Of a DNA stretch of 64,000 nucleotides, positions 31,731-64,000 are shown in pieces. Each line of letters starts with the position of its first letter. The stretch's first letter is position 1. The position numbers and the translations under genes are program-made. Source of the stretch: Auriscalpium vulgare (Eukaryota; Basidiomycota; Agaricomycetes; Russulales; Auriscalpiaceae); NCBI GenBank assembly GCA_019915015.1, contig JAHBBC010000025.1, positions 549,096 through 613,095 of the forward strand. The letters are read 5' to 3'. The notes beneath the pieces were generated by a model that saw only the letters and a program-made list of their open reading frames with translations, was not told where the DNA came from and ran no database searches.

Positions 31731-32325
31731 ACGACGATGTTGTGAGTGCCGTCTAAATCTGAAGAAGAGGAGGGAACTGACGCGATATGCGGTGGTAGAA
31801 GTGGAGCTGGAGTCCGTGCGCGGAGCTGGTACTTCTTGGTCGCGTCGCGTGTTGACTTCAGCTCTCACGCCTCCTCGTCCTCCTCACCCTCCTCACAGCC
31901 TTCTGCGAATGACGTGGAATCCAAGCGGTTGGCGGCCAAGAGGCAAGCTCACCCAGGATACCGCGACATCCTTGATACCGCCCGCTTTGTCCTCGAAGGA
32001 ATGCCGGCGCACTCTTTTCCAGAACTTCCTCTTGCACATCGGCCGCGTTCGTCCTCAGCCGGACGAAGACAGACACCAACGACGCCACGCCTGTCGACGA
32101 GGGGAAGCTGCAAGAGGACTGTGTCTGGGGTACGTCTTTCTAATCCATACATCTGGCGCGTCTGACTGTCGCCCACCGTATAGCTAGCTATTCAACTCTT
32201 CTCGTTCATCACGACCAACTGAGCCTCGCAAGCTCCTGGCGGACTTCTCCCCCCTCAGCAGCGGCTCAGCAACGACCTCCACGCCCGGGGGTGCCGCATG
32301 CGCCCCGCCCTCACCGTCAGCACCC
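31731..32325 (+). other. Left flank of the transposon, coding-like
   Basis: A plus-strand frame reads KRLAAKRQAHPGYRDILDTA and on to about 32120. After a GTACGT...TAG intron-like gap it reads PTEPRKLLADFSPLSS up to the transposon edge. No complete gene could be built. It may be the 5' part of a gene interrupted by the insertion, but the frame does not join cleanly to the right flank. Confidence 0.25.
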
Positions 32326-32352
32326 CATCAGGAAAAATCTTTTCCTACATAG
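32326..32352 (+). repeat. Left terminal inverted repeat
   Basis: Begins CATCAGGAAA and continues to CCTACATAG. It pairs imperfectly with 44345-44373. Confidence 0.75.
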
Positions 32353-32668
32353 CTCCAGCACAAATATGTGTAGGCTATAGTGCATGAAGGCCTATCTATG
32401 TAGTGCCACTATGTCAACATCTGCAATGTGTACTATGCAGCCTCCACAGCCCACTATGGTAGTCCTATAGAGCAGCATAAGTTTGCTACAGCAGCTACAC
32501 AGCCCACATACTCTGCTACATGAGCTATGTTATCTACACAGCCAACATACTCTGCTATGTATACTACAACCCCCTACAGAGTCCAGCTGATACTTAGATA
32601 TCACAGCCCTTTGTGACCCTCAGAAATAAGATGGACAGTACAGCAAATATATTTGATTGACCAAGCTG
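32353..32668. promoter_or_regulatory. Left subterminal motif array
   Basis: AT-rich DNA carries many copies of short related words: CTATGTAGT, GCTACA, CTACACAGC and GCCAACATA. The same words appear in the opposite orientation in the right subterminal zone (for example TGTTGGCTAC). In CACTA elements such arrays bind transposase. That role is inferred here. Confidence 0.6.
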
Positions 32669-35600
32669 CTACCAAATAGATTGAAATGAATGCTGATCTG
32701 CATAGTTATTCAACAAAAATGTGTCACATCGATCAAGCACATTTGAAGACTTCCAAGCTCTATCTGCATGAGCTCCAAACCTAGGGATCAGATGACATCC
32801 ACGACGAACGGACTCTACCTCGATAACAGACGAGACCAATCCTTTTCCATTTGACTTCTTGCTCTTGGAAATTTTGAACATATCGGTATCGCCGTCCTTT
32901 TCTGTGGGCCTTGAGAACCATTCGACAAACACCAGATGGCCTGGAGGATCGACGCCCTTGGATTTGAATAGCTCTTCGTTGACGGACCACGGTAGCTTGA
33001 ATATGACTCGCAGACGGCCGATGCGCTGGCCTACTGTATTGTTAGCGCGTCATTGCTGCCACGTTGATCACGTTATGCTCACCTTTTACCCCCGTTCGCT
33101 CGACCACGCTATCGTCCTCATCGATGATGACAGTGTCGAATCTCCCGGGGTTATCTCCTGTCGGTGGCTTGGCTGTCACAGTGTTGGTTGTGTCGGCAAG
33201 CTCGTCAAGCTGCAGATTTGGAAGGACGAATTTGATCTTGTGCCAGACGTCCACTGAGTTGAATAGCAGGGGCAGTGCGTGATCGCTCCGCCTGGGGCGA
33301 TCACCGATGTGTTCGCTGAGAAAGGCTTGCAAGGCAGGGATGAAATCCCGCGCACCATACGCCTGTTCGAGCTGGACGAAGGGCACCGATGCGACAGCGG
33401 GTGTTTTGGCCAGTTTGATGCGACCATCAGTTTTGGATGCCGTCGTATATAGGGATGGGGTGGCCGCGGCTGTATTTGATGTCGATGCAGCAGATGGGAA
33501 AGACAATGAGGGTGCTACCCGAGCACGTCGTGCCGTCTTGGACTGGCGCTCTCCAGATCGCCACGCTATTTGCGCAGCCAGCGCAACCACCTTCTCCTTG
33601 CGTTCCAGCCAGAGTATCATCTGGTCGAGGTACTCCCGCTTGTTTGAAGCCCGATAAGCTACCTTTGCGAAGTCAATGTGCAGGCGCTCCGTCGTTTCTG
33701 TGTCGCAATTGTCTGTCGTGCCTATCGCGCAGATCGAAGGAATATAGTGCTGCAGGGACTCCAGCTTGGGGATGTCGAAGCCGTCGCCTATCGTGTGTGC
33801 CAGAATCAGTAAAGGGATACTTGATAGCATAGAGAGCAACGCACCCGCGCCCACTCTGGCGGACGTCTTCAGGAATATTTTCTTGTTTCTGTGGAACAGG
33901 TCCAGGGCGTCTCGCAAGTACCCGATGGTTTGCCCGGTGTGACTGCGATAGCGGGCAATGTAGAGGAAGTCGAGCAGGCCACGCGCCGCGCGAATTGCCC
34001 CCGCAGGCGCCTTCCCCAACAAACACCCCAAGATCTGCTTGCAGATCTCTTTATGCTCACCACCGGTGACGCGCGAGAGTCCGCTGATCCCGTTCAGGAA
34101 CCTGCGTATGCCGTGTGCCTCAGGAAGCCTTCGAAACCGGGCGTCGAGCTCGGCCTCGCCCATCAGGTTGGAGAGCCAGCCCAGCAGATGCTTGATCATG
34201 CCTTGGTAAAGCTGGTGCAGGATGTCGGGGGTGATCGTGTCGTGTATGTTGCAGTGAGGAAGGTTGGCCCAGAAAGGATGGGTGACGTTGATGAGACCAG
34301 CCTCCTTCAGCATATCCTCTTGCTTCGCGGCTGTGGGCTCATTCGCAGCGCGTCGGATAATGCGAATGGTTGACCCTTGCTGCCGCGCTGGCGATCCATG
34401 TTTATGGTCGCCAAAGCCACCGCGACGCAGCTCGCACTTTGGGCATCGACTGCCCCGGGTGCATGCAACGAGGGCCTGCTCTGGAAAGTCGGCCACATAG
34501 CAGGCAAGGATGGGGAAGCAGAGTCGGATGGCTCCATCGCCCCCGACGAGCTGAACCCCCGTTCGGCCGGCGGCCTCCAGGCTCTGCACAATCATCTTCA
34601 TTGCCGCGTGGTAGATCCTTGCGCGAACTGTGCTTGCGACGATCTTGGAGAGGTGGCTGAGGTCGGGTGTAGGGAGGTAGCCAACGAGCATGTGGGCGTG
34701 ATTCGAAGGCTTGCGACGGACGTCCTTGTCAATGTTGCCAATGGTGAGGTACAGCGGATATGCCGAGCCATCACCACTGAAGTTTGTCAGCAGCGTCTTG
34801 TCTGAGCTGAAGACCACCGGAACCACAGTCGCGCCGCCCGGGAGCTTCGCCTGATTGATACAATTAGTTATGGGCCGGGATGAAATGCGCCAAGGACGCA
34901 CCTGCGTCTCATGCCACCAGTCGCCCGTACACATCTCGTTGTACAGCCTCTCCTCCTCCTCGCGAGTCGCGCCTGAATACTCCCGCCGAGGTGCGTATGA
35001 CATGCTGTCCACGAACGCGACGTTGCCATAGAGTGAGCGGATGCATTCAAGCGGGTCCCGATATACCAGGGAATAGGCCTCGTCGTCTTCGCCAATTTTC
35101 AGCTCCGTCTTGTGCCATTTTGCAGGGGCGGGAATGCTATCAATGAGCTGATTCAATGAGCGAGAATCCTTGTAGGAGAGTTCAAGTCGCTCATGGACCT
35201 GGTGCATAGGATTTCAGACAAGAGCAAAGGAGAAGAGATGATGTGACGCACCCCGTCGATGTCGAGGAGTTTTGAAAACGCGGTTTGCGTCGGGCCCTGG
35301 CTTTTAGCCCACTTTGCCACCTCCCAGTCCAAGCGGCTGCGGAAGGGATGGTAGGGATTGGCGTTGGCATCTGCAGCTGCCACGCGTCTTCGATACTCGT
35401 CCTCCTTCTTGGCATCGACAGAGAGCACTCGACCCGCTCCAGGATACACGTCCACAACAGCTGGCTCTGTCTCGAGATCGTCCTCAGCCTGCGCTCGCTG
35501 AGAGGCACTGGATGAGCCGGGCTGAGTCGGAGTTGGGGATGGGGTTCGAGGAGGGGATGGTGGTGAGGCAGGGCGACTGCTAGCCCCGGTGTTGTCGAAG

Positions 35601-35809
35601 TCGTCAAGTTCTTGAAAGACATTGCTATCGTCTTCCTGCTCGGGGTCCGACTCGCCATCGCTTGGATCCATGTAATCAACCTGCCTTGACGCAGGCAGAC
35701 TCTGTAGCTCGTTGACCATCCAATTGCACTGTTTTGACTGCTTGACATGGCTTTTGCGAGCCCCGCTGCTACCAAAACTAGCCCCGCAGCTTTTGCATGG
35801 AAAGATCAT
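32669..35809 (-). CDS. Plavaka-family transposase, 994 aa, intact
   Basis: Four exons (35809-35252, 35198-34902, 34850-33083, 33030-32669) total 2985 nt with no internal stop. Residues 5-28 form a Cys-Cys-His-Cys finger (PCKSC...H...C). An acidic Ser/Pro linker follows. The RNase H-like core includes PVVFSSDKTLL with LTIGNIDKDVRRKP, the GGDGAIRLCFPILACYVAD block with a CPKC zinc pair, HDTITPDILHQLYQGMIKH, and ETTERLHIDFAKVAYRASN. The C-terminus (VFVEWFSRP, HLIPRFG, NVLDRCDTFLLNNYADQHSF) is the usual Plavaka ending. It should cut at the element ends and insert them elsewhere. Intactness suggests recent activity. Confidence 0.9.
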
Positions 35810-36022
35810 AACGGAAACAAAGTGTAGGAATGACGGAAAGCGTAGGAGGCAGCAAGTAGTGCGTCGCGGGCTCGGCGACGCGGCCCGTCTCTGTTTGGTG
35901 TCTCAGGCAAAAAGTATCGTATCCCATCTTGCTCGACAAAGCGTTGGCCGTTCCATTTTGCAATTTGGGGTATAAACTAAATAGCAGGTAGCTAATTGAT
36001 ATGCACTGCGCTCGCCCTATCC

Positions 36023-37875
36023 CTATGCACAGGATCCAGCTGGTGACTCGGAGGCCTCGTTGTTGACATTCGAGCCCTCCTGTGCATCTGACGAAGGCCC
36101 ACCATCGGAAGACGAACCCTGCACAAACTCCGGCAGCTCGCCGCTCCAGGTGGGCAAATAAGCCGCAGCGGTGTCCCAGCTGGTTGAAGCAGCGGCGTCA
36201 AACGATTCCGCGAGGGAGCGATCCTCCTTCCGCATAGTCTTCTCGGTGCGACAGCCGTAGACCTGCCATCGCATCAGGGCCCCAGCACACCATTGCGTCA
36301 TGGACTGCCGAGTTTCGCCAGGCTGGATAGCCACGTTGCTGTGGGTTATGAGGGCGGAAGGGATGAGGATGGTGGAGCCGGGCGGAAACTCGATAACCAG
36401 CGCCAGGTCCCACAGCACAAGGTGTCCTCCGAGATGGTAGTCAAAGTCGCCGAGTGCGGTCACAGCGCACCAGCCATACGGCACGTTTTGGGAGTCGCGG
36501 TGAGGGACGGTGAGTGCGCGCGGCCCAAAGTTGAATGTGACTGCGGGAAAGATGCTGTTGACGAAGGGCTTCCTCAGGAATGGCTGGTGAGCCACAACGT
36601 CGTCGAGCGCCCCCGCGCAGCGCTCAAAAGCGCTGTTGGAGAAGGTGTGGTAGACGCCTGGCATGGGCAAAATTAGCTATGTGGAAGACAAGATGGCGAC
36701 CAAACGACGCACCGCTGCCCAGCCCTGCGAGCCTCCGCACCCCTTCGTGGCTCAAAAGCCTCTGCGCTGCTGCCGCCTGCTCGCTGTTGTCGTACGAGAT
36801 GTTATAAGGCATCTGTGGAATAAATGAGCCCAGCAATGCCACAAGAGTAGATTGCGCACGCACCTTTGGTCCTCCGCCGTGCATGTAGCCTGCAGACAGC
36901 AAGGGGTACCGCCCGCGGGTGTGTGCTTGCTGTCCCGGGGAGAAGGGGCAGGCCTTGGCGACATCCTGCATCTCTGCGCTCACAGACTGGGGGACGCTCT
37001 CCCAAGATGCATCGCGGCGGGGCGGGGCAGCTAGTTGTGCCAGCACGCGGCCCTTTCTATCCAAGACGGACTCGCAATGGCTACAGCAAGGGGATATCAG
37101 CGCACTGGGCTCGCCGAGCTCACTATGCACGCACCTGCCGTCCCATTTTTTGACTTGAAAGCGGAGGTCGTCCACAAATGTTGCTAGTGGGATCTCCTTG
37201 CTTAGCCATGGCTTCTTCTTGTTGACGAACGGTTCAGCGGAGGGATGAACGCCCCGTTGCACAATATGAGCTCCGCGTGCCACTGGAAAGTTGAGGGCGT
37301 TATACGGAGTGGACAGAGTGGGCTGCTTCTTGAACGCCTCCTGAATTCGAGGAGTGACAGGCGGCAGCCCGTGCGGAGCGTCAGCCGCCGCCTTGCGCCG
37401 TTTGTTGAGGCGGCGGATTCGATCGCGGGCATGCTGGGTGCGCTCTCCCGGCCATCGTTCTGCAGGGGAAGGGCGAGGCAGGGCTCGGGGTGCATGGTTG
37501 TCGGGGGCTGGAGGCTGCTGAGGGCAGGAAGCGCCGCTGGCGGGTGCGTGGGCGGGCGGCGCGCTGGCATGAGCGCCTTGCTGGCCTTGCTTGAACGAAG
37601 GGGAAGGGGGCCTGGCGGGTGCATTCGCAGGCAATGGAGCAGCATCTTGCTGTTCTTGCTGGAGAGCAGCGTTGAAGTCATCCATGGATGCCCGCAGGGC
37701 AGCTTCCAGGTCGAAGTCGGCCTCCGAGTATGCAGCGAGTGCATCCTTGAGCAGGCTGCGGGCGTACGGCGAATACCGCTTCTGAGAGCGGAGCTACGGG
37801 CAGACATGAGCAGACAGTCAGCGCGGGAATACAAATGCATCGATCAGTGCTCACCGTTTTGAAGAGCGGAGGCAT
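36023..37875 (-). CDS. TET/JBP-like 2OG-Fe(II) dioxygenase, 543 aa
   Basis: Five exons (37875-37855, 37793-37135, 37080-36864, 36812-36713, 36657-36023) give 1632 nt. The N-terminal third is Pro/Ala-rich with a basic RIRRLNKRRKAA patch. The catalytic domain fills the C-terminal part. VPHRD near residues 384-387 supplies the iron-binding His-x-Asp, ITHSNVAI near 438 the distal His, and GETRQSM near 449 the Arg that should hold 2-oxoglutarate. All key residues are present, so the enzyme is predicted active on methylated cytosine in DNA or RNA. Fungal members of this family are known to travel with DNA transposons. The first exon encodes only MPPLFKT. Confidence 0.85.
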
Positions 37876-37990
37876 GGCACGCCAGCTGGCACAAGCGGTA
37901 GAAAGCATGAGTGTGCTGTCAAGCAGGCGCACAATAGAAGACTCACCAGGATAGGATCGGAGGCACTGACTGCTATTGCACCAAGCTAGG

Positions 37991-38228
37991 AATGAGGCTC
38001 GTCAGCATTGGGAACAGCGAGGAGGCCTTTGCATCGAGAGGAGCCGGGAGCGATTCCGTGCAAGACGCGCGGGCAAATGAAGAAGCTCACCGAATAGGCA
38101 AATCAAGTGACGCGCAAAGAAGCTGGCAATAAGGCTCGTCAGCATTGGGAACACTGAGGGTGCCTTTGCATCGAGAGGAGCCGGGAGCGATTCCGTGCAA
38201 GACGCGCAGGCAAATGAAGAAGCTCACC
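37991..38228. repeat. Two ~101-bp direct repeats, 137-bp period
   Basis: Copies at 37991-38091 and 38128-38228 share GGCTCGTCAGCATTGGGAAC and most of the following ~75 bp (CTTTGCATCGAGAGGAGCCG...). They lie just upstream of the TET-like gene, between it and the next minus-strand gene. Confidence 0.8.
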
Positions 38229-38544
38229 AAAAGCTCGCAGGGAAGCAAAGCGACGCGCTAAACGCAACAAGCAAGGCGTGCAACGCGTCGAATTTGCGGC
38301 GGGAGGGCTCCAACTGTGGTGGGAGGCGGCGAAGAAAGAGAGTGTGCGGCGGCGGCGAAGAAAGAGAGTGTGGCGGGCGCGGACTTTGCGTTCAACGCAT
38401 CAAACGTCAACTTGGGCGCTTGGTGACCATGTTGCCCTGAGATCTCTGCACCCGCGTTGACGATTCAAAGACAAGTAATTCAAGCATTGTTATCTACACA
38501 GAGTCGCAAAAGTGCCTAGCTATGAGGGCCGCTTCCCCCGCTCC

Positions 38545-39442
38545 TCAGACCCCCCTCGGATTGCGGACCCTGCGACCAGCCCGCTTTTTGACGGGGGACG
38601 CACGCGCAGCGTTCGCTTGCGACGGCGGCAGATGGGCGTCGCTAGATTGGATTGCATTAGTGAATTCCTAAGCAAACGCACGGCACTTACCTGGCGCTAG
38701 ACTCGCCGCCGTCAAAGTTAGGCTGTTCCGAGAAATCCACGTAGATCCCGGGCGGGAGCCCCAACCTGGCCACCTCGCTGTCCGACAAGCCGTGCACCCC
38801 CATCTGCGCCATCTGCGACATCGTGAGCAACATCATGCTGGGGTCGTCGTCAAGAGGGATGTCGCTGTCGTGCCCCGAATTGTCGTGCTCCGAGGCTTCT
38901 GCTTTGTCTGACTCTTGGCCCTCATGGTGCGCCTGCAATCCAGGGGAGTCGGCACGATCGACGTCTATGGGAGAGTGCCCAGGGCTGGCGACTCGCAGAG
39001 ACGGCGGGGCGCAGTGGATGATGGGAGCCGGGGCGTTCACGATAGGTTGGCCCAGCAGCGCAGGGCTGCCGCTGGCGGCAGGAGGAGGGTCTGCAGCAGG
39101 AGCGAGTGTGTGGCGGCTGGAGGTGATTTCGCGCACTTCAGTGGGCATAGCACGCATGGCGGGTTGGCCATCGCGCGCGGGCGCGGGGTTGGGACCATCG
39201 TGAGGAATCGAAAGGAATCTGATGTGCTACAAGCAGCAACGACGTCTATCAGCGAGAGCTCGTGGATGCTAAGAAGCTGCAAGGACGCACCGTGCCCGCT
39301 CCCAAGTCTGCCGGCCTAAAAACGACGTCCACCGTGCCGTGTCCTGCAACGACAACATTCACGTCTTGCAAGGTATCCTGTAGAGCGCCGATCAGCAGTC
39401 GCAACAACGGCGCTGAGGTCAATAGCTTACCCCAGTTGCCAT
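38545..39442 (-). CDS. Unknown transposon cargo protein, 243 aa, acidic middle and basic tail
   Basis: Four exons (39442-39431, 39377-39291, 39226-38691, 38641-38545) give 732 nt. The first exon is only 12 nt and encodes MATG. The N-terminus (VNVVVAGHGTVDVVFRPADL) looks folded. A Pro/Ala-rich linker is followed by an acidic zone (HDSDIPLDDDPSMMLL), GVHGLSDSEVARLGLPPGIY, and a last exon ending in the basic run KKRAGRRVRN. If the strong GTAAGT donor at 38690 is ignored, the frame stops three residues later. Using it adds the basic tail in frame. No family was recognised. DNA binding or regulation of the transposase is only a suggestion. Confidence 0.55.
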
Positions 39443-39969
39443 TGTGCACGAACGCGCTGATTGAAGAGGTGTGGGAGAGGTGAGGAAGCTGGGGAGGGTG
39501 AGCCGAGGTGCTGCGCCTCTTATCTGATTCTTGCGCAGTGTCGCGTGTTTGCTCGCTGCCCTGCCTGCAGCCTGCCTGCTGGCTGCCTCGTGCGCCTCGT
39601 GCTCAGTAAATCAGCACAATGCTCACCGTCTTCCGCAGCAAAGTCGCTGGTAGCGCAAACAGAGAGCCCAGTATACAGTACTTACAATGTTAGATTGTCT
39701 CGCGTCGTCGGCGCGCTCTCTCATCGCTGCCGGCTCTCTCATCGCCGCCCGCTCCCTCAGCTCCGCGTTACCTCAGAGTCCCCAGCGCCTCGTTGAACCT
39801 TAGCTCTCTAAGGGGGCAGGTCCATTACTTATTCTATTTCTAGGGCCCTGTACTTAAGACGCAGCAACGGAGACCGCTTCTTGCTGCCCCCTGCCCCCCA
39901 TCCCCCATCATCGCTTTGCATCCCAACCCTTGAGTCCCATCCGCCCATCTGCGTGTCGTCGACAGCACA

Positions 39970-40540
39970 ATGCATTCGCAATCGCGGGTTCTCTTCTATA
40001 TGACGGTGCCTGGTTCTGGGCGTTTCGTACGTCGCCGATCTCTGTCGATCACGGCGCGCGCTGACTTAACCCCGATACTTATCGCTCAAGGTCGTGCACC
40101 TCGACATCGACAAGTCGGGGGCCTTATGCTTTACGACTATCTCGCCGAATGCCTGGCCTCCCGAGATTGTTGAAGACCTGGCCACCAACCGTGCGACCTT
40201 CCACTCCGCCACAGCAGAGATAGCGCGCATGCTCGCAACTGTCCCCAAGATGCTGCCGCCCAACTCCGACAGCGCTCAAGGATACCAGGACCATTTCAAG
40301 ATCAATGTGCGAGCCACCGCGGATGCGGATGGGAATATCGAATTCAGTCTGGAAGAGGGCGGCCTGGAGGGCTTGAAGTTTGGGTACGTTCTCGTCCTGC
40401 ACGGTGAGCCAGCACTACTGACTGGAACACTGCATCATAGTTCGAATTACGAAGTGGGTTTGGATGCGGTGGGAAGGCTGCAGCTGAAGGTTGTTCAGCA
40501 GCCGCAGATGGGGGCAGAGTGCGACCAAGATTCTCTCTGA
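39970..40540 (+). CDS. Unknown transposon cargo protein, tandem paralog 1, 149 aa
   Basis: Exons 39970-40026, 40091-40383 and 40441-40540 give 450 nt. The protein reads VLFYMTVPGSGRF, then VVHLDIDKSGALCFTTISPNAW, a helical middle, FKINVRATADADGNIEFSLE, and SNYEVGLDAVGRLQLKV. The alternation of short hydrophobic strands suggests a beta-rich fold. The next gene shares the pattern with the same two intron positions (after GRF/GQF and after FG/LG), so the two arose by duplication. No signal peptide or known motif was seen. Confidence 0.65.
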
Positions 40541-40660
40541 CTCGCACTCCTTTGCTCATCTGCATCTAGAGCCCCAACCCCGCATCTGGCACGTCGTCAT
40601 CTCTCCCCTTACCCCGCCACCACCGCAGACCGCTTGGGGGCACCGCGAGTCACCGTTACC

Positions 40661-41221
40661 CAGGCTCAAGTAATCTTCTACGCAACGATACCTCGATCAG
40701 GTCAATTTGTACGTCGGCGGTCCCATTGATAACTGAGCAGCCTGCTTATGCCTTGCACCGCTTCAGGTGGCTCATCTTGATCTGCATGCGTCCGGGGTTC
40801 TCGCATTCACTACAATTGGACCAACATCCTGGGCGCGACCAGTCATCCAAGGCCCCACCCGCGTCTGTGCTCCGACAGGCCAGCCTAAAATCCGCGGCGG
40901 GTCCATTGCCGCCGAGGTTTTGGAGATCCTCACAGCCATTCCGACCACGCTCAAAAAGCTGTCAAGCACTTCAGGCCCCCAGCAGTTGACGATCAAGTTC
41001 CAGGTCACAACGGACGCGGCCGGGCAGCTGAAGTGGGCTGTCGACAAGGGCGACCGTCTTAGTGGGCTTGTTCTTGGGTAACTTGTGCCTTGAGTTGTGA
41101 ACACGAACACGCCGCATCTAATCTTACTTTGAATTACAGCCCCCGCTATCGAGTCGAATTGAACTGCGTGGGACGCCCCCAGCTGATGGACATCAATGAG
41201 GAGGAGTCCTCCGAGGAGTGA
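40661..41221 (+). CDS. Unknown transposon cargo protein, tandem paralog 2, start unresolved
   Basis: Exons from about 40661 to 40708, 40767-41077 and 41140-41221 give QVIFYATIPRSGQF, then VAHLDLHASGVLAFTTIGPTSW, PQQLTIKFQVTTDAAGQLKW and PRYRVELNCVGRPQLMDI, ending in an acidic EEESSEE tail. Intron positions match paralog 1. No in-frame ATG was found directly before the first exon, so a small upstream exon is likely. Both copies are open. Confidence 0.55.
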
Positions 41222-41600
41222 TAGAGACGTAGGTGCGTGCATGCTGACGCCTCCCAGTCGTCTTCTGCTCCTGTGTACTAACTCAGTGCACACTAGCTCC
41301 TTCATCAACGCTCCATGTCGGTTCTCTCAGCTGCGTTGGCCCGAGGTGAAAAAATTCTGTGTTATCGTACGTGCGTGTTTCTTGGTGCCATTTTGGTCAC
41401 AGGTCTCCTCAAAGGCAGTCGGAGGATGCAAGTGATTGCTGTCTGTACGTAGTATGTAATCTGAATCGCTGGTCTTGAATGTGACCGTTACCCGACCTGT
41501 CATATTTACCTGCCGCGAGCCCGCTTGGCCTCCGCTTCGTCCGCCCCTTCTCTCTCCCGTGCCACGTCAAGCCGTCCTTCACCCTGCGCCTACATGCGCC

Positions 41601-43608
41601 ATGGCTCGCAACCCTGCGCCTGCACGCGCCATGAACACTCGTAGCAACCAGCAACCGCCGTCGCCGAGCGGCAGGGTTGATGTCAGCCGGCTGGACGAAG
41701 CGACACTCAGGAATCTGTTGGCGAAGGCTCAAAAGGCGGCCAAGGCAGCCAAAAAAAACGTACGTCGTTGCTTGCATGTCCCGCCAAGCCCATCTTCAAC
41801 TGCAACGTTAGAACGCCAGCAAGATCGGCTGCAGGACGAACAGGAATCGAACGAGGCCGAGGCAGCATTTCAGGCGGCAGAAGCTCAAGAGGAAGACGAC
41901 GACGAGGATGCTGACGCAGATATGCCTGAAAGCATGGAGCAGCGCGACGCTCAGGCAGATATAGGCGAGGATGACTTTAGCGTCGTTGAGGACGAGGAAT
42001 ACCGGGCGCGTCGCAAGAGGAAGGAATATTGTAAGCCGTTCTCGCTGGTACGCTGTGTTGAATATTGACCAGTAGGTAGCGGGCTCAGAGCACTCAGGAG
42101 ACAACGAGGAGGAAGCTGCCGAGCAACCCTCGCGCCAGGCCGCCAGCAAGAAGGCGAGGAAGGACCCTCTGCCGCGCGACGCTAGGATTCCTGAGGTCAG
42201 TCATACTTGCCAGCAGCCCAGTATGCCCTTAACTTGTTCCGTAGATCCGCTTCAGCACCCCAAAGCCGGTCGCCAGCAAGCTTCCCGCGCGCCTCAAGAA
42301 CAAGAGCAACTCATCGCATTCGCTCAGCCCATCGGGCAACGTCAACCTGCCGCCGTCGTCCAGCCCACCGCGCACATCCAGCCCTGGTCCGATGTCAACG
42401 CCGTCAACGCCGCCTCGCGCAAGCCGCCAGCAAGCTTCGAAGGAAGTGCCCTTCACGCCATACGATCCAGCACGCGCTGCTCGGGCGCTGCAGAAAAAGC
42501 AGTCACCGGCAACGAAAGGCCTCCTCAGGGTCGCAAACATTCACATGAGGATCAAGGTCGCCAACGAGCAAGGCTTTCCCGAGGACGCAGAGACGGTGCA
42601 GATGAGTAAGGCTAGCTACCTCGAGGCCTGTCGGGAGCTCTCAGCGCCACGTCGGCGGGCGCGCTTTGATAAGGACCAGCTGTATCGGGAAACAATGCTG
42701 TCCATAGTGCGAGTTTTTCTCTCCTTTTCACCTCGCTGTCCAACGCTGTCTCCCTCTAGATCGGCCAGCGCACCTGGCAGCTTCGTGGGCAGGTCAAGAC
42801 GAAGGCGCAAAGTTTGGTTCCCTCGCACTACCGCCTCATCCAGGTCGACGCCAAGTACGACGCGCAGGATGCTGTGCAGCAGCTGTTGAAGAAGAGTTTG
42901 TTTCACTTTCGGAATCTCGACCAGGTGCGGCCCTGATTGTTCCACCATCCCATGCTCTGCTGAAGCTACAGCCCAGCGACGTGGGCCATTTGGAAACACC
43001 ATCATCCCCGCCCTATTCGCAGCGCAGTGGCTTGCTAACAGCAAGGCCGATGCAGCTGGTCTTTATTCCGCACGCTTCAACCCAGTGTCGTTGAATCTCA
43101 TTGCACTCCTGGTGACATCCGTGCGTTGTCTTCATCATGCGCTTTGTGTCGTTAGGCTTCTCTCACCGTCTATCTGGCAGATTGAATGCGCTCTGTGCGA
43201 CTGGAAGACCGGGGTCAAAACCACCAAGGGCAACGAATTCAACCACGACAGCTACCAGACCGTATACATCCGACATCTCACGTCTCTCGAGAAGTTCAAG
43301 AAGATGCAGCCAGGTGCACTGGCGTCATTACAGCGACGCATATGGTCGGAGGCCCTGTACGTCTTCCGTTGATTTGACTGCCGCTTACTGAACGGCTGGG
43401 CAGGACCATCTCGGGGCTGAGCACCACCGTTGGGTTGCAGACCAACGCGGACTTAGACTCTGATGATGACTTCCTAGACGACGGGACCGCGCCACGCGTG
43501 ACTGAAGATGGGTTGGAGTATGTCAAGGACTCGTCCGATCATGGTGCCAGCCAGCCCCCGGTTCCCAACGCAGAGGCTGGCCCATCAAATATGCCTCGAT
43601 CATCCTAA
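41601..43608 (+). CDS. DUF6532-family protein, 545 aa
   Basis: Eight exons (41601-41759, 41820-42030, 42080-42195, 42245-42706, 42760-42924, 42977-43120, 43181-43356, 43404-43608) total 1638 nt. The N-terminus has a short helix (LDEATLRNLLAKAQKAA), an acidic stretch (EEDDDEDADAD) and a Ser/Pro-rich linker. The C-terminal half carries the DUF6532 pattern: FGNTIIPALFAAQWLANSK, NPVSLNLIALLVTSIECAL, then YQTVYIRHLTSLEKF. That domain is common in Agaricomycetes and has no known activity. Three acceptors had to be placed downstream of the first AG to keep frame, which the coding pattern supports. Its position inside the inverted repeats makes it cargo. Confidence 0.75.
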
Positions 43609-43859
43609 GATAGAGCGTCCATTCGTCGATCCTCCAAGTCTGTCCCTCTTCCTCAGGTAGCTTTTTGCCTGACTAATTCTTCAATGTTCCAGATACATTC
43701 ACTACGTGCTTCCTATTTCATTAAGTGATCTCTCGTCCATTAATATTCCCTATATTGTCGCATATCCAGGCTATCCTTCCATCATTTGATATCCCAGTCT
43801 TTTCTCTTTCTCCAGCCAAGTAGTACAGGTACAGGCTCATTATGATAGACTCAATGCCA
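43609..43859. other. 3' flank of the DUF6532 gene within the element
   Basis: AT-rich, pyrimidine-rich non-coding DNA with no repeat or gene recognised. Confidence 0.4.
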
Positions 43860-44344
43860 GATGGTTTTAATGTCTATTGCATTTGGATGATCATATTGAA
43901 TGGTCCTATGCTAGTGCCCTAGGCTGTATGGTCAACAGAGCTTCTGGTGCAAGCATTATAGCTTGTGCTGCCAAGATAGTGAACATAGCTGTTAGCAAGT
44001 GCATGTGTAGCCACTGGTGCATACACAGCCTACTGTGTGCACATAGCATAGTAAAGCAGCAACACTGCATATGTCTACTATGGTGGCATCGTAGCCAACA
44101 CCTCCTACACTGAATATGATGGCACAGGTGGCAATGCAGTCAATCCATGCTGTGTTGGCTACAGTTGACTACAGTGACTACTGTAGCACCACAGATGGCA
44201 GGCTGCGCTATGTAGTGGTGGTAGCACAATGTAGCATGGTCTGTGCACTATATAGCGCTGTGTAGTGGGGAGGGGTGGCTACATAGGACCACATAGAACT
44301 TGACCTTCCTATATTACTATATGTGCTATGCAGGTGTCATAGAT
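43860..44344. promoter_or_regulatory. Right subterminal motif array
   Basis: Short words such as TGTGTAG, CTGTAGC, GTAGTGG and TGTTGGCTAC recur many times in mostly one orientation, mirroring the left array. Long purine/pyrimidine alternation gives the zone its AT-rich look. Confidence 0.6.
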
Positions 44345-44373
44345 CTACATAGGATGGGTAAAATTTCCTGATG
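44345..44373 (-). repeat. Right terminal inverted repeat
   Basis: Reads CTACATAGG...TTTCCTGATG toward the right edge, the imperfect complement of 32326-32352. Confidence 0.75.
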
Positions 44374-44853
44374 CCCTGCGCTGCACCTCCCCGCGCCCGC
44401 CAGCGTCCCGCTAGCCTCGATCGCCAACATACCCTCACCTGCGCCCCGCGCACAGCGCCGCCAGACGCCCATCTCGTATCTCCCGCCCGGCAGCCCGCTC
44501 TCATGGGCGCCCGGCCGCAGCGCGCATCTACTTATCTCGTCGCCGCTGAAGCAGACCGAGAGCTCTGAAAGAGGCGAGAGAACGGCCGGTGGAGCCCGCA
44601 GTGCTCACACTTGCGGAGAAGTGAGCCTTCCTCACCTCACCTCAATTTTGTACGTGCTGACTGGCGCCCACAGGCCGCAAATCTCCTGCAGTTCATCGTG
44701 CAGAAGGATTCGCGCTGCCTCGACCTGTGCTCGGAGCTCGCCGTGCACGAGGCGAAGCTGCGCGACCTCAAGCTCAAATGGGAGCGCATCGTGCAGCGCG
44801 AGTTCGGGTGCACCGCCTCCGTCGTCTGCCTATTGCTCAAGTACTGTTTTTAA
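44374..44853 (+). pseudogene. DUF4048-like gene fragment, decayed
   Basis: Directly right of the transposon one plus frame reads VPLASIANIPSPAPRAQRRQ and on to LISSPLKQTES. Another continues ALKEARERPVEPAVLTLAEK. After an intron-like gap comes AANLLQFIVQKDSRCLDLCS with LKLKWERIVQREFG. This matches my memory of the DUF4048-type region in basidiomycete proteins. The pieces are in different frames. At 44619-44622 the exon-intron junction has one G fewer than the coding frame needs, and a stop follows soon after WERIVQREFG. So it is a broken gene, perhaps the one the transposon entered. Confidence 0.45.
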
Positions 44854-61718: not shown

Positions 61719-62964
61719 ATGTCGTTACCATTCACACCGCGTTCTATCATCCACGTGCCGACGAGACTCGCCCTCGCGCTTCTTCACTCGCGCCGGTTGA
61801 AGTCCGCGCAGCCGCCCGTCCCATATGACATCCAGATGAAGATCATCGACTGGGTATACCTCTATTTCCAGCACGGCTTGGTCGATTTCCGCACGCTCCG
61901 GGCGTGTTCCCTCGTCTGTAAAGCCTGGACAAGACCTTCCCAGCGATTCCTCTTCCGGAAAACTCCCACCATAATTAACCCTCCCTTTGACCGGCTCCTT
62001 TCCGTCATGCGCACAAACCCACTTCTCAATACATACGTGCGCAAAGTCAGCCTGTCCATATACAACGACCCCGAACTCCTCGCTACCAAGGTCCCAGACT
62101 TCCTCTCCATCCTTGCGCTCTGTCCGCACGTCACCATTCTCCAAATCTCCATCGATGACGATTGCGATCTGTCCTTGTTACACGGCGTCGTGGTTGGACT
62201 GCGTGCGCTGGATCTACGGCTTCCATGCCTGCACGTTCAAGGCGTCCTCGGGGCCATTGCTCCTTTCATCCGTCTCTGGCCCGACCTGCAGAGCCTCGAA
62301 TTTCTCTGTCCGGACGACGCCAAGTTCGATCAAGCCGTCCCTCCCGTGCAGCTGAAGTCCTACAAAGGCTCAGAATGTCCCTCCACGACGACACGATCGC
62401 ATACGCCGATTGGATGCTACGGGGATCCGATTTATCCGGACTGCGCGAGCTGCACCTGCTCTACGGTTATGCTCCTGTGCGCCCTCATGGTCTGCACGCG
62501 CTGGCCTCCGCACTCGGCGGTCTCACGATATTGAAGGTCACCGGCGCCCCTCCCCCGCAGCACGTCCTCGACCGCTGCGCGCAGCTCGAGACGCTCATTT
62601 TCTCGGAGTGGCTGGACGGAGCGCTCACGCTGCCGCGGACTCTCCACCATGTCGGCTACCATGCAGAGATGAGGACGCACGCACGCGTGTCTGTGCGAAA
62701 TCTAGTGCATGCTCTGCGTGCGCTGCAGGCGCTGCGCTTGGTGACGGTAACACGGGACACGCCTTCTCCAGTCTGTGATGTGCTCCTGCACGAATGTCAA
62801 TATATGCGTGTCGAATTTGCGGTCTACCACTGGAGCACTTTTAGCGTGAGTGAAAGCGCTGTTAAGTACGCTCAAAACTCTATACTGAATCATCCGCAGA
62901 CTATCTCGGAGGCGCATTTGATTTAGGCCTCACCGAGATCCACTCCACAGACGCTCAACTTGAA
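61719..62964 (+). pseudogene. F-box paralog with one frameshift
   Basis: It starts MSLPFTPRSIIHVPTRLALA. VPYDIQMKIIDWVYLYFQHG and LRACSLVCKAWTRPSQRFLF align with the paralogs. The frame holds to about 62370 (PPVQLKSYKGSE), then continues one frame over from LRMSLHDDTIAYADWMLRGS to VEFAVYHWSTFS and a GTGAGT donor near 62848. A final exon near 62901 is likely. One shift may be a true lesion or a base error. Confidence 0.65.
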
Positions 62965-64000
62965 GGTATGTGGACTTGATCTTCGCTCTAGTGGCAAGCT
63001 GACGCAAAGAAAACACAGGCATACGTTTTTCATGACTCGTCCACGACCTGCGTCCACGCGATACGAGTGGCGACCGCGGCGGGAAGTTGGCCCTAGCGAA
63101 GCTCTACGGCTCGTGTGGGTCTGATCATCAAATGTCAGAGGCGGAGGTGACAGTCCTAGATATCACACGCGTCACGAACGAGATAGCGTTAAATTGACGA
63201 AAGGACACCGTTTTATTCATACAAAAACTTCTCTATATAGGACGCCGTGATGCATTTGTCCGTACAGCCGCCACCGACCCCATGTAGCTGATGATTCACG
63301 GTACACCCTGCAGACGCGGATGGTTGAGATGCATGCGCGCGGGGGAAGGCTGAGACGTACTTTGCATCGTATGCGTTGCTGATACACCCACGCTCCCGGG
63401 CCCTATTGCTATACCAGTCATGGGCATCCGAGGCGTCGTTCAGGCCCGTACAGTGCCTGCAGCTGGGCGGGTGCTCGGCCGAGAGGACTCGACGGTGTCC
63501 ACGTAGTGCACACAGGCGCAGATGCGGCCGTCGCGCTGCGTTTTGCGTGTCACATACTGGTGCGCAAGTCGTATGTGATGGTAGCCTCGCTGCGCCGGTG
63601 ATTCCTTGCTCCACAAGAATAACGCAGATTGCGTTTCGGAGCGTTGGGGGCGAGGCTGCGCGCGAGCCTGGACGATGGCAGATGGATGTTCAATCTATGC
63701 GAAGGAAGTGGCGCGCCGTGGATCCAAGGTCTACTTATATGAGCTTGCGGGCGTCGGGTGCGGGTAGGAAACGAGCATCGAGGAGAGTTGAGTATCGAGA
63801 GAGATGCGCTGTTGCAGTGTTGAGCTAAGATCTATGCACTGGAAGCTAGCCGGAGCGTGTCGCTAAGGTTGGGGTTTCGTCTTCCGTCCGAAGGGCTGTC
63901 CACCCTCCAGAGTCCAGGATGCTAGTCTCTACCGCAACTTCAGGGCTGCCCTCGAGTCGCGCAATGTGACGGAAGTTTTTTTTTTTTGGGGGGGGGGGGG
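62965..64000. other. Right end of the window, no gene
   Basis: No domain was found. The last ~35 bases are a run of T followed by a run of G. Confidence 0.45.

Follow-up and report, generated by a model that had tools for sequence, protein, structure and literature searches.

A TET/JBP-like gene on a mobile Plavaka transposon with CpG-poor ends and an adjoining DUF6532 gene

The 64,000-nucleotide stretch of DNA analysed here (hereafter denoted the window) belongs to contig C25 in a 51.6 Mb genome and contains a DNA transposon of the Plavaka group at positions 32326-44373. The element encodes a Plavaka transposase, a protein with a DUF6532 domain and a predicted TET/JBP-like dioxygenase, together with a beta-rich gene and an acidic/basic open reading frame (ORF). 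The overall explanation to which we incline, with moderate confidence, is that of an autonomous PlavakaB transposon in which the TET-like enzyme would act against silencing and the ends are poor in CpG; the anatomy and mobility of the element are close to certain.

Precise ends and at least three insertion sites

The boundaries of the element and its flanking duplication are as follows.

32326..44373 (no strand): whole element, 12,048 bp; three further genomic copies have the same ends
32326..32335 (+): left terminal inverted repeat (TIR), CATCAGGAAA, from copy-end comparison
44364..44373 (-): right TIR, reading CATCAGGAAA on the minus strand, from copy-end comparison
32323..32325 (no strand): left copy of the target duplication, CCC; judged to be 2 bp from an uninterrupted paralogous target
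44374..44376 (no strand): right copy of the target duplication, CCC

The element starts at its 5′ side with CATCAGGAAA and finishes at its 3′ side with TTTCCTGATG; the match between the TIRs spans 10 bases, inward of which the two ends are dissimilar. Its termini (CATCA..TGATG) are as for PlavakaB, and the 5′-CAC..GTG-3′ termini of EnSpm/CACTA elements are not found. Left-end, transposase-start and right-end DNA, used as queries, each recovered the same four near-identical copies in the genome, i.e. that in the window and those at C26:544675-565599, C25:410660-431582 (hereafter C25:410k) and C8:126878-138426, which are 99.9-100% identical across aligned stretches; the transposase-start and right-end queries also picked up C38 and C17 at greater divergence. 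All three other copies carry, at their ends, the 60 bases that open and the 60 that close 32326-44373, and homology among the window, C26 and C8 copies ends at the element ends (the latter two share one extra base, by chance). Flanks on both sides differ among these three copies, which therefore represent at least three insertions. The sequence-only reading had described a complete-looking Plavaka element with matched ends, which the ends, the transposase domain and the target duplication confirm; it had proposed a search for other copies with the same gene order, of which three were found beside that in the window, and boundaries that exclude some of the cargo were not seen, since all listed genes fall within the boundaries of the four copies in this genome.

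The flanking triplets are CCC/CCC for the window copy, AGA/AGA for the C26 copy and a mismatched AGA/CCC for the C25:410k copy; the flanks of the C8 copy have only two bases (AC) in common. The target duplication is 2 or 3 bp in length (AGA at C26, CC or CCC in the window, AC at C8), and C25:410k has none. The joined window flanks match uninterrupted sequence at C26:465781-466082 (100%) and C13:297261-297562 (99%), the match covering bases 200-500 of the query and crossing the junction at 250; the window element was therefore inserted into repeated sequence. The C26:465781-466082 target reads CACCCCTG and, if its run of C is taken as true, the window duplication is 2 bp (CC) and not 3, such that the candidate duplication proposed from the window sequence is borne out in a shorter form. 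The match to the repeated target sequence at C26 and C13 begins approximately 50 bases left of the insertion point.

Two of the copies (C26 and C25:410k) are longer because an 8.87-kb long terminal repeat (LTR) retroelement with 1,157-bp terminal repeats is nested within them, at a site corresponding to window 36008-36012, just 3′ of the TET-like stop codon. The C8 copy has a 499-bp deletion within the beta-rich gene and a 1-bp gap (one G fewer in a run of G) within a TET-like exon. On its left the C25:410k copy is flanked as the C26 copy is, and on its right as the window copy is; an assembly join, differing haplotypes or an inversion involving two copies of the element could each account for this mosaic. 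This joining of two flank types, and the inverted recurrence at C25:396869-398371 of sequence lying close to the end of that contig, would suit the view that the extra copies are assembly duplicates instead of products of transposition; the distinct flanks of the window, C26 and C8 copies on both sides, each with its own short target duplication, and the presence of uninterrupted target sequence in the genome, however, make that view highly improbable. Window 62300-63800 has an inverted repeat at the same C25:396869-398371 positions.

The transposase, ends and target duplication agree with those published for PlavakaB, and the locus appears to fit an autonomous cut-and-paste PlavakaB transposon of an Agaricomycete. 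In the available portions of a 2025 survey (Kojima 2025, PMC12730594), TET genes are described on PlavakaB elements of Agaricus bisporus and Gymnopus confluens, which resemble the window element in their transposase, CATCA..TGATG termini, 2-3 bp duplications and TET/JBP gene; on that text, neither the carriage of TET by PlavakaB nor its termini nor its target duplication is new.

Transposase, DUF6532 and TET/JBP-like genes

Models for the three genes at the centre of the argument were, like all others here, drawn up manually on the basis of open frames with GT-AG introns, and without RNA.

32669..35809 (-): Plavaka transposase, predicted 1012 amino acids (aa), PF18759 + DUF6830; exons 35809-35252, 35198-33083, 33033-32669
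36023..37908 (-): TET/JBP-like dioxygenase, predicted 572 aa; exons 37908-37855, 37793-36864, 36812-36713, 36657-36023
41601..43608 (+): DUF6532 protein, predicted 545 aa, eight exons; candidate Plavaka partner

The transposase contains the PF18759 Plavaka domain (E 9.3e-107, 357 bits; cut-off 26.3) and the motifs CPKC (438) and HCNIH (501), which conform to the C(2)C and H(3-4)H patterns that the accessible text of PMC12730594 reports for Plavaka transposases. An earlier assignment as a 994-aa Plavaka transposase holds as to identity and not as to length, the spliced model of 1012 aa depending on two inferred introns. The relatives at C17 and C38 carry transposase, TET-like and DUF6532 genes, with the orientation of the TET-like gene reversed relative to the window. 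Comparison with these two gives ratios of nonsynonymous to synonymous substitution rates (dN/dS) of about 0.12-0.16 for the transposase, 0.10-0.16 for DUF6532 and 0.15-0.20 for the TET-like gene, and comparison with the more distant C5 and C10 gives 0.20-0.23 for the transposase and 0.19-0.25 for the TET-like gene, in each case with dS near saturation and over locally alignable codons only, which lowers the values. All three genes have evolved under purifying selection.

The DUF6532 domain is recognised by PF20149 (E 7.6e-46); the window copy is one A short in a homopolymer of the first DUF6532 exon when compared with the C26 and C8 copies, and its exact N-terminal reading is therefore uncertain. 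Loci were merged by hand, giving at least 78 Plavaka, 48 DUF6532 and 71 TET-like loci in the genome, counts which are lower bounds from the scoring of 123/125, 87/87 and 76/182 candidates, respectively. Thirty-four of the 48 DUF6532 loci lie within 10 kb of a Plavaka locus, where approximately 1.5 would be expected if loci were placed uniformly, a lenient null given the clustering of transposons; 30 of these 34 are on the opposite strand to Plavaka, and 2 of the other 14 are on contigs that gave no Plavaka match. Three TIR-bounded elements, with CATCAGGAAA-type ends and 2-bp duplications, hold a Plavaka and a DUF6532 gene within 6.5-8.4 kb.

C2:1350188-1356667: minimal Plavaka + DUF6532 element, genes on opposite strands
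C2:2698783-2705265: minimal Plavaka + DUF6532 element, genes on opposite strands
C13:516747-525174: minimal Plavaka + DUF6532 element, genes on opposite strands

These minimal elements share with the window element the TIR family and the opposite-strand arrangement of transposase and DUF6532, and differ from it in their smaller size, their CpG-normal ends and the lack of a match with any of 46 TET-like queries, other genes not having been searched for. DUF6532 as captured cargo was rejected, since it adjoins Plavaka genome-wide and is present in the minimal TIR-bounded elements. What had been listed as special cargo looks instead like a Plavaka partner, and the evidence from this genome makes it probable that DUF6532 is a core one.

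In plants, the TnpD and TnpA proteins of En/Spm form a two-protein mobilisation system, and these CACTA elements also have repeated subterminal motifs and a link with methylation; their ends are CACTA, whereas those of the window element are CATCA. By analogy only, the transposase may constitute a comparable two-protein module together with the DUF6532 protein, the gene for which is transcribed divergently. If true, a partner role would explain an unassigned Pfam family with at least 48 loci here and would extend the Plavaka machinery. Searches of solved-structure sequences with the DUF6532 protein gave nothing useful. In the literature searched DUF6532 is named only within a domain list, and it is not mentioned in the available portions of PMC12730594; DUF6532 as a resident Plavaka partner is new against the literature compared.

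The TET-like protein has an HxD motif at residues 414/416, a second histidine at 467 and an arginine at 478. All four residues (H414, D416, H467 and R478) are invariant across 30 aligned sequences; they match the 2-His-1-carboxylate triad of such dioxygenases and the conserved arginine that in these enzymes has a role in 2-oxoglutarate binding. A search in which 8000 candidates were scored gave 158 homologous proteins at E<=0.001, the best of the TET matches listed being from Auriscalpium vulgare (67%), with those from Artomyces pyxidatus at 44-47%; the best protein matches suggest that the host probably belongs in or close to Auriscalpiaceae. The homologs and the invariant residues support the earlier proposal of a TET/JBP-like gene aboard a Plavaka element. 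Two results weigh against the assignment: the Tet_JBP Pfam profile gives the window protein 12 bits (E 0.13), under the cut-off of 34.9, and solved-structure sequences searched with the protein and two profiles yielded no TET at E<=10. The Tet_JBP profile matches 20/46 homologs at E<=0.01 (best 5.4e-7), and a few of the homologs bear a UniRef name with JBP1/TET oxygenase.

The catalytic residue is D in 45/46 aligned homologs, N in one and E in none; HxE is absent, and a PE-type TET was rejected. In the portions of PMC12730594 at hand, the published Plavaka-borne TETs are of this PE type, with HxE, in contrast to the HxD of the window type (45/46). The same text reports only Kyakuja elements as TET carriers in Russulales (PMC12730594). 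TET-bearing Kyakuja (KDZ; AG-type, relatives of CcTET), as far as they are described there, likewise place an HxD TET on an Agaricomycete DNA transposon, but belong with another transposase family and have G/S and D residues where the window type has N and C. With ungapped spacing, each of the 46 homologs has N three and C nine residues past the catalytic D; judged against the published description, the AG-type residues of Kyakuja (G/S at +3, D at +9) were not found.

These transposons were reportedly named in a 2014 PNAS paper, and HxD-type Plavaka TETs may already be in print there. According to the accessible text of PMC12730594, that 2014 work implied an association of Plavaka with TET in Serpula, Fomitopsis, Trametes and Puccinia. 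Against the literature compared, an HxD-type TET on Plavaka and the Russulales-like host are new. The suggestion that the arrangement was undescribed may hold as to the TET type, which differs (HxD), and falls as to a TET on Plavaka, which the available portions of the survey already contain (PMC12730594).

Among the TET-like loci listed, 26/41 of those at least 50% identical to that of the window lie within 12 kb of Plavaka and at least 3/41 within 12 kb of KDZ (comparison set of at least 108 KDZ loci); one TET lineage therefore travels mostly with Plavaka here. For TET-like loci under 50% identical the corresponding figures are 3/30 for Plavaka and at least 17/30 for KDZ, a second TET-transposon partnership, with KDZ, in the same genome.

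CpG-poor ends and the proposed mechanism

Beyond the outermost genes the element has two noncoding ends.

32326..32668 (no strand): noncoding left end, CpG count 0 (15.3 expected), in which CTACATAG-type motifs recur
43609..44373 (no strand): right noncoding end, 9 CpG (38.0 expected)

The motif CTACATAG is present five times in the window element, all within the ends. In the left 404 bp, TG+CA number 76 (49.9 expected) and CpG 0 (16.7 expected), and in the right 614 bp the counts are 125 (76.3 expected) and 3 (31.3 expected), respectively; GpC is not depleted at the ends, and TA and GC are in excess. Passive CpG loss of all noncoding DNA was rejected, as the interior intergenic sequence (162 CpG, 161.9 expected; observed/expected ratio, o/e, 1.0) and the introns (59, 64.0 expected; o/e 0.92) are near expectation.

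A threshold was set after the window ends had been seen (300-bp windows, o/e < 0.3, expected >= 5). With it, two segments are found in the 64-kb window, exactly the two element ends, and the C17 and C38:180k stretches have their sole two sub-threshold segments at presumed end positions, the right TIR being recognised in C17 and C38 and the left TIR not recognisable. The three TIR-bounded TET-less elements have no CpG-depleted end segment, which gives 3/3 (window, C17, C38:180k) against 0/3 in the TIR-based subset (p 0.10). No CpG-poor pieces occur outside the element in the window (0/41), in two C2 flanks (0/7) or in the nested LTR element (0/7). In a survey of transposase/DUF6532 pairs that covered 1.2 kb beyond the DUF6532 gene, with the pairs' own termini mostly not identified, 9/10 TET-linked pairs fell under o/e 0.3 and 1/6 without a nearby TET-like gene did so (Fisher p 0.008, post hoc because the threshold was chosen after the window ends had been seen). 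C45, C4:6961 and C2:320507 are classed as TET-less only because the scan, which scored 76/182 candidates, placed no TET-like gene within 40 kb of them or elsewhere on the contig; C57, with a TET-like gene 20.7 kb from Plavaka and a minimum o/e of 0.17, was left unclassified.

Several observations weigh against a simple tie between TET carriage and CpG-poor ends. The TET-linked pair C8:1498033 is without strong depletion (minimum o/e 0.45), C2:320507, classed as TET-less, is depleted (0.24), and TET-linked C10:525614 is depleted on one side only, with nothing on the other to 534.4 kb in a scan in which the element end was not located. CpG-poor pieces also occur elsewhere, in a C11 flank (2/4) and in C4 (2/15). 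When 11 transposases were placed in a midpoint-rooted tree, the three TIR-bounded TET-less elements grouped as a single clade, and the CpG-poor trait may therefore have arisen once; the cause of the depletion is unproven, and it may go back to a single evolutionary event.

Between the window, C26 and C8 copies there are 12 substitutions, all of them transitions, 9 of which, read from their printed contexts, are CpG versus TpG/CpA (binomial p 4.6e-6, with a baseline of 14.7% of bases in CpG). Of these nine, that at 44163 falls within the CpG-poor right end and the other eight are interior. A CpG-biased spectrum of this kind is the mark that would be expected of cytosine methylation on the element. 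Neither this bias between copies nor the CpG-depleted ends had been noted in the sequence-only reading. Oxidised 5-methylcytosine is reported for Laccaria and Coprinopsis in the accessible part of PMC8889193, in which Plavaka is not named, and Amoebidium gene clusters flanked by Plavaka are described in that of PMC11244446; according to the 2025 survey, as far as available, the function of transposon-borne TET is not experimentally validated (PMC12730594).

We propose that the transposase and the DUF6532 protein would recognise the motif-rich ends and mobilise the element; that the host would methylate its CpG; and that the TET-like enzyme would oxidise 5-methylcytosine on the element, counter silencing and keep the element genes expressed. 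Ends without CpG, presumably binding sites, could not be masked by host CpG methylation. The mobility, the boundaries, the retention of the genes, the CpG-type mutations and the CpG-poor ends are shown here, and we infer the binding, the methylation itself, the TET activity and the silencing with its relief. Of the two parts, an anti-silencing function of the TET-like gene seems reasonably likely, whilst the reading of the ends as methylation-proof sites falls a little short of an even chance.

Other explanations can be offered for both the gene and the ends. The TET-like gene may be a passenger without a role in the life of the element, as the existence of TET-less Plavaka elements in the same genome (the family of C2:2698783 with its C11 relatives being multi-copy) and the one-base gap in the TET exon of the C8 copy would allow; but its codons have a dN/dS of about 0.15-0.25 over near-saturated dS and the same gene pairing is seen again across diverged elements, and we regard a passenger as distinctly unlikely. 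The depletion could alternatively be a mutational footprint, the element's own TET-like enzyme, brought by the transposase/DUF6532, oxidising 5-methylcytosine at the ends, where oxidised or methylated C would then decay to T and CpG loss would be confined to the ends of TET carriers. Such a process would match the TG+CA excess that goes with CpG loss at the ends, the depletion in 9/10 TET-linked pairs and 0/3 TIR-bounded TET-less elements, and the 9/12 CpG transitions among recent changes between copies. It sits poorly, however, with the interior location of eight of the nine transitions, where most CpGs sit and where CpG stays normal, and with the excess of TA and GC; the TG+CA excess may also stem from the repeated CTACATAG-like motifs. 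We consider a footprint unlikely, if somewhat less so than a passenger gene.

A stronger competitor is inheritance by the TET-carrying Plavaka clade, from a single ancestor, of CpG-poor, motif-rich ends for reasons that have nothing to do with TET or methylation. The TET-less C13, C2a and C2b elements separate from the TET carriers in the transposase tree, the right end of the window element can still be aligned with that of C38 (63% over 241 columns), and the end motifs are repeated and without CpG, all of which is consistent with inherited composition. Nonetheless, the enriched end motifs differ among the window, C17 and C38b, the depletion persists among elements whose transposases share 42-62% identity with that of the window, and GpC is spared; as the depletion is kept despite differing motifs, something may maintain it. 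Inherited composition is a real possibility, although we would not call it probable.

The favoured explanation, an autonomous PlavakaB with TET anti-silencing and CpG-poor ends, has a wider form, in which TET-carrying lineages have CpG-free ends, whether as methylation-proof sites or as an enzyme footprint, and TET works with the transposase and DUF6532; this form is tentative. Were it true, sequence alone would record where a transposon-borne TET or host methylation acts, and DUF6532 would gain a function. The element is relevant to the means by which mobile DNA may evade silencing, and offers testable signs in a methylation-type mutation spectrum, CpG loss at two ends and TET-less controls from the same genome. 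In the literature searched we found nothing on CpG depletion in basidiomycete transposons, nor anything linking TnpA with demethylation and subterminal regions. CpG-poor ends are not mentioned in the available portions of PMC12730594, and in TET carriers they are new against the literature compared.

The beta-rich gene and other features

The two remaining features lie between the TET-like and DUF6532 genes.

38545..39157 (-): acidic/basic ORF, predicted 187 aa, coding status unsupported
39970..41221 (+): beta-rich gene, 319 aa, two related beta-rich domains, six exons

The halves of the beta-rich protein are 36% identical to each other. The fused model is 65% identical over 99% to a 328-aa Auriscalpium vulgare protein, the single match at E<=1 among 3731 word-sharing candidates of a 5.8-billion-sequence database. 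A second copy of the gene at C4:377163-379117 keeps the five introns and an open frame, with exon indels that are 3-fold only; its DNA is 72% identical, including upstream sequence. At 65%, the A. vulgare protein is nearer to the window gene than is the C4 copy, for which the exon-by-exon identity is 53-59%. The dN/dS between the window gene and the C4 copy is 0.42. The fused match and the shared introns indicate one two-domain gene where a pair of paralogs had been read, and the proposed set of six genes, rejected on the same grounds, becomes one of five predicted genes. Searches of solved-structure sequences with the beta-rich protein gave nothing useful; the two-domain gene is new against the literature compared.

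The C17 and C38 relatives gave no match for the beta-rich or acidic proteins; the beta-rich gene is therefore either a later arrival in the window lineage or was lost from theirs, and it may be regarded as an addition to the element. The acidic/basic ORF, which had been listed as a protein gene, has as its sole match a 156-aa protein that is 99% identical and without a source name, and its coding status is on that account unsupported.

The C4 locus is one candidate for a host donor of the beta-rich gene. In the 18 kb around this C4 copy, the window transposase, TET-like and DUF6532 proteins give no significant match; 13/46 TET-like homologs match weakly near C4 370.2-370.5 kb (best E 1.7e-5). 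In the C17 relative the transposase lies between two regions (C17:903743-904307 and 910772-911336) whose 14-base inverted matches mirror each other in position, and the C-terminal exon of this transposase lies approximately 3.7 kb away from the remainder.

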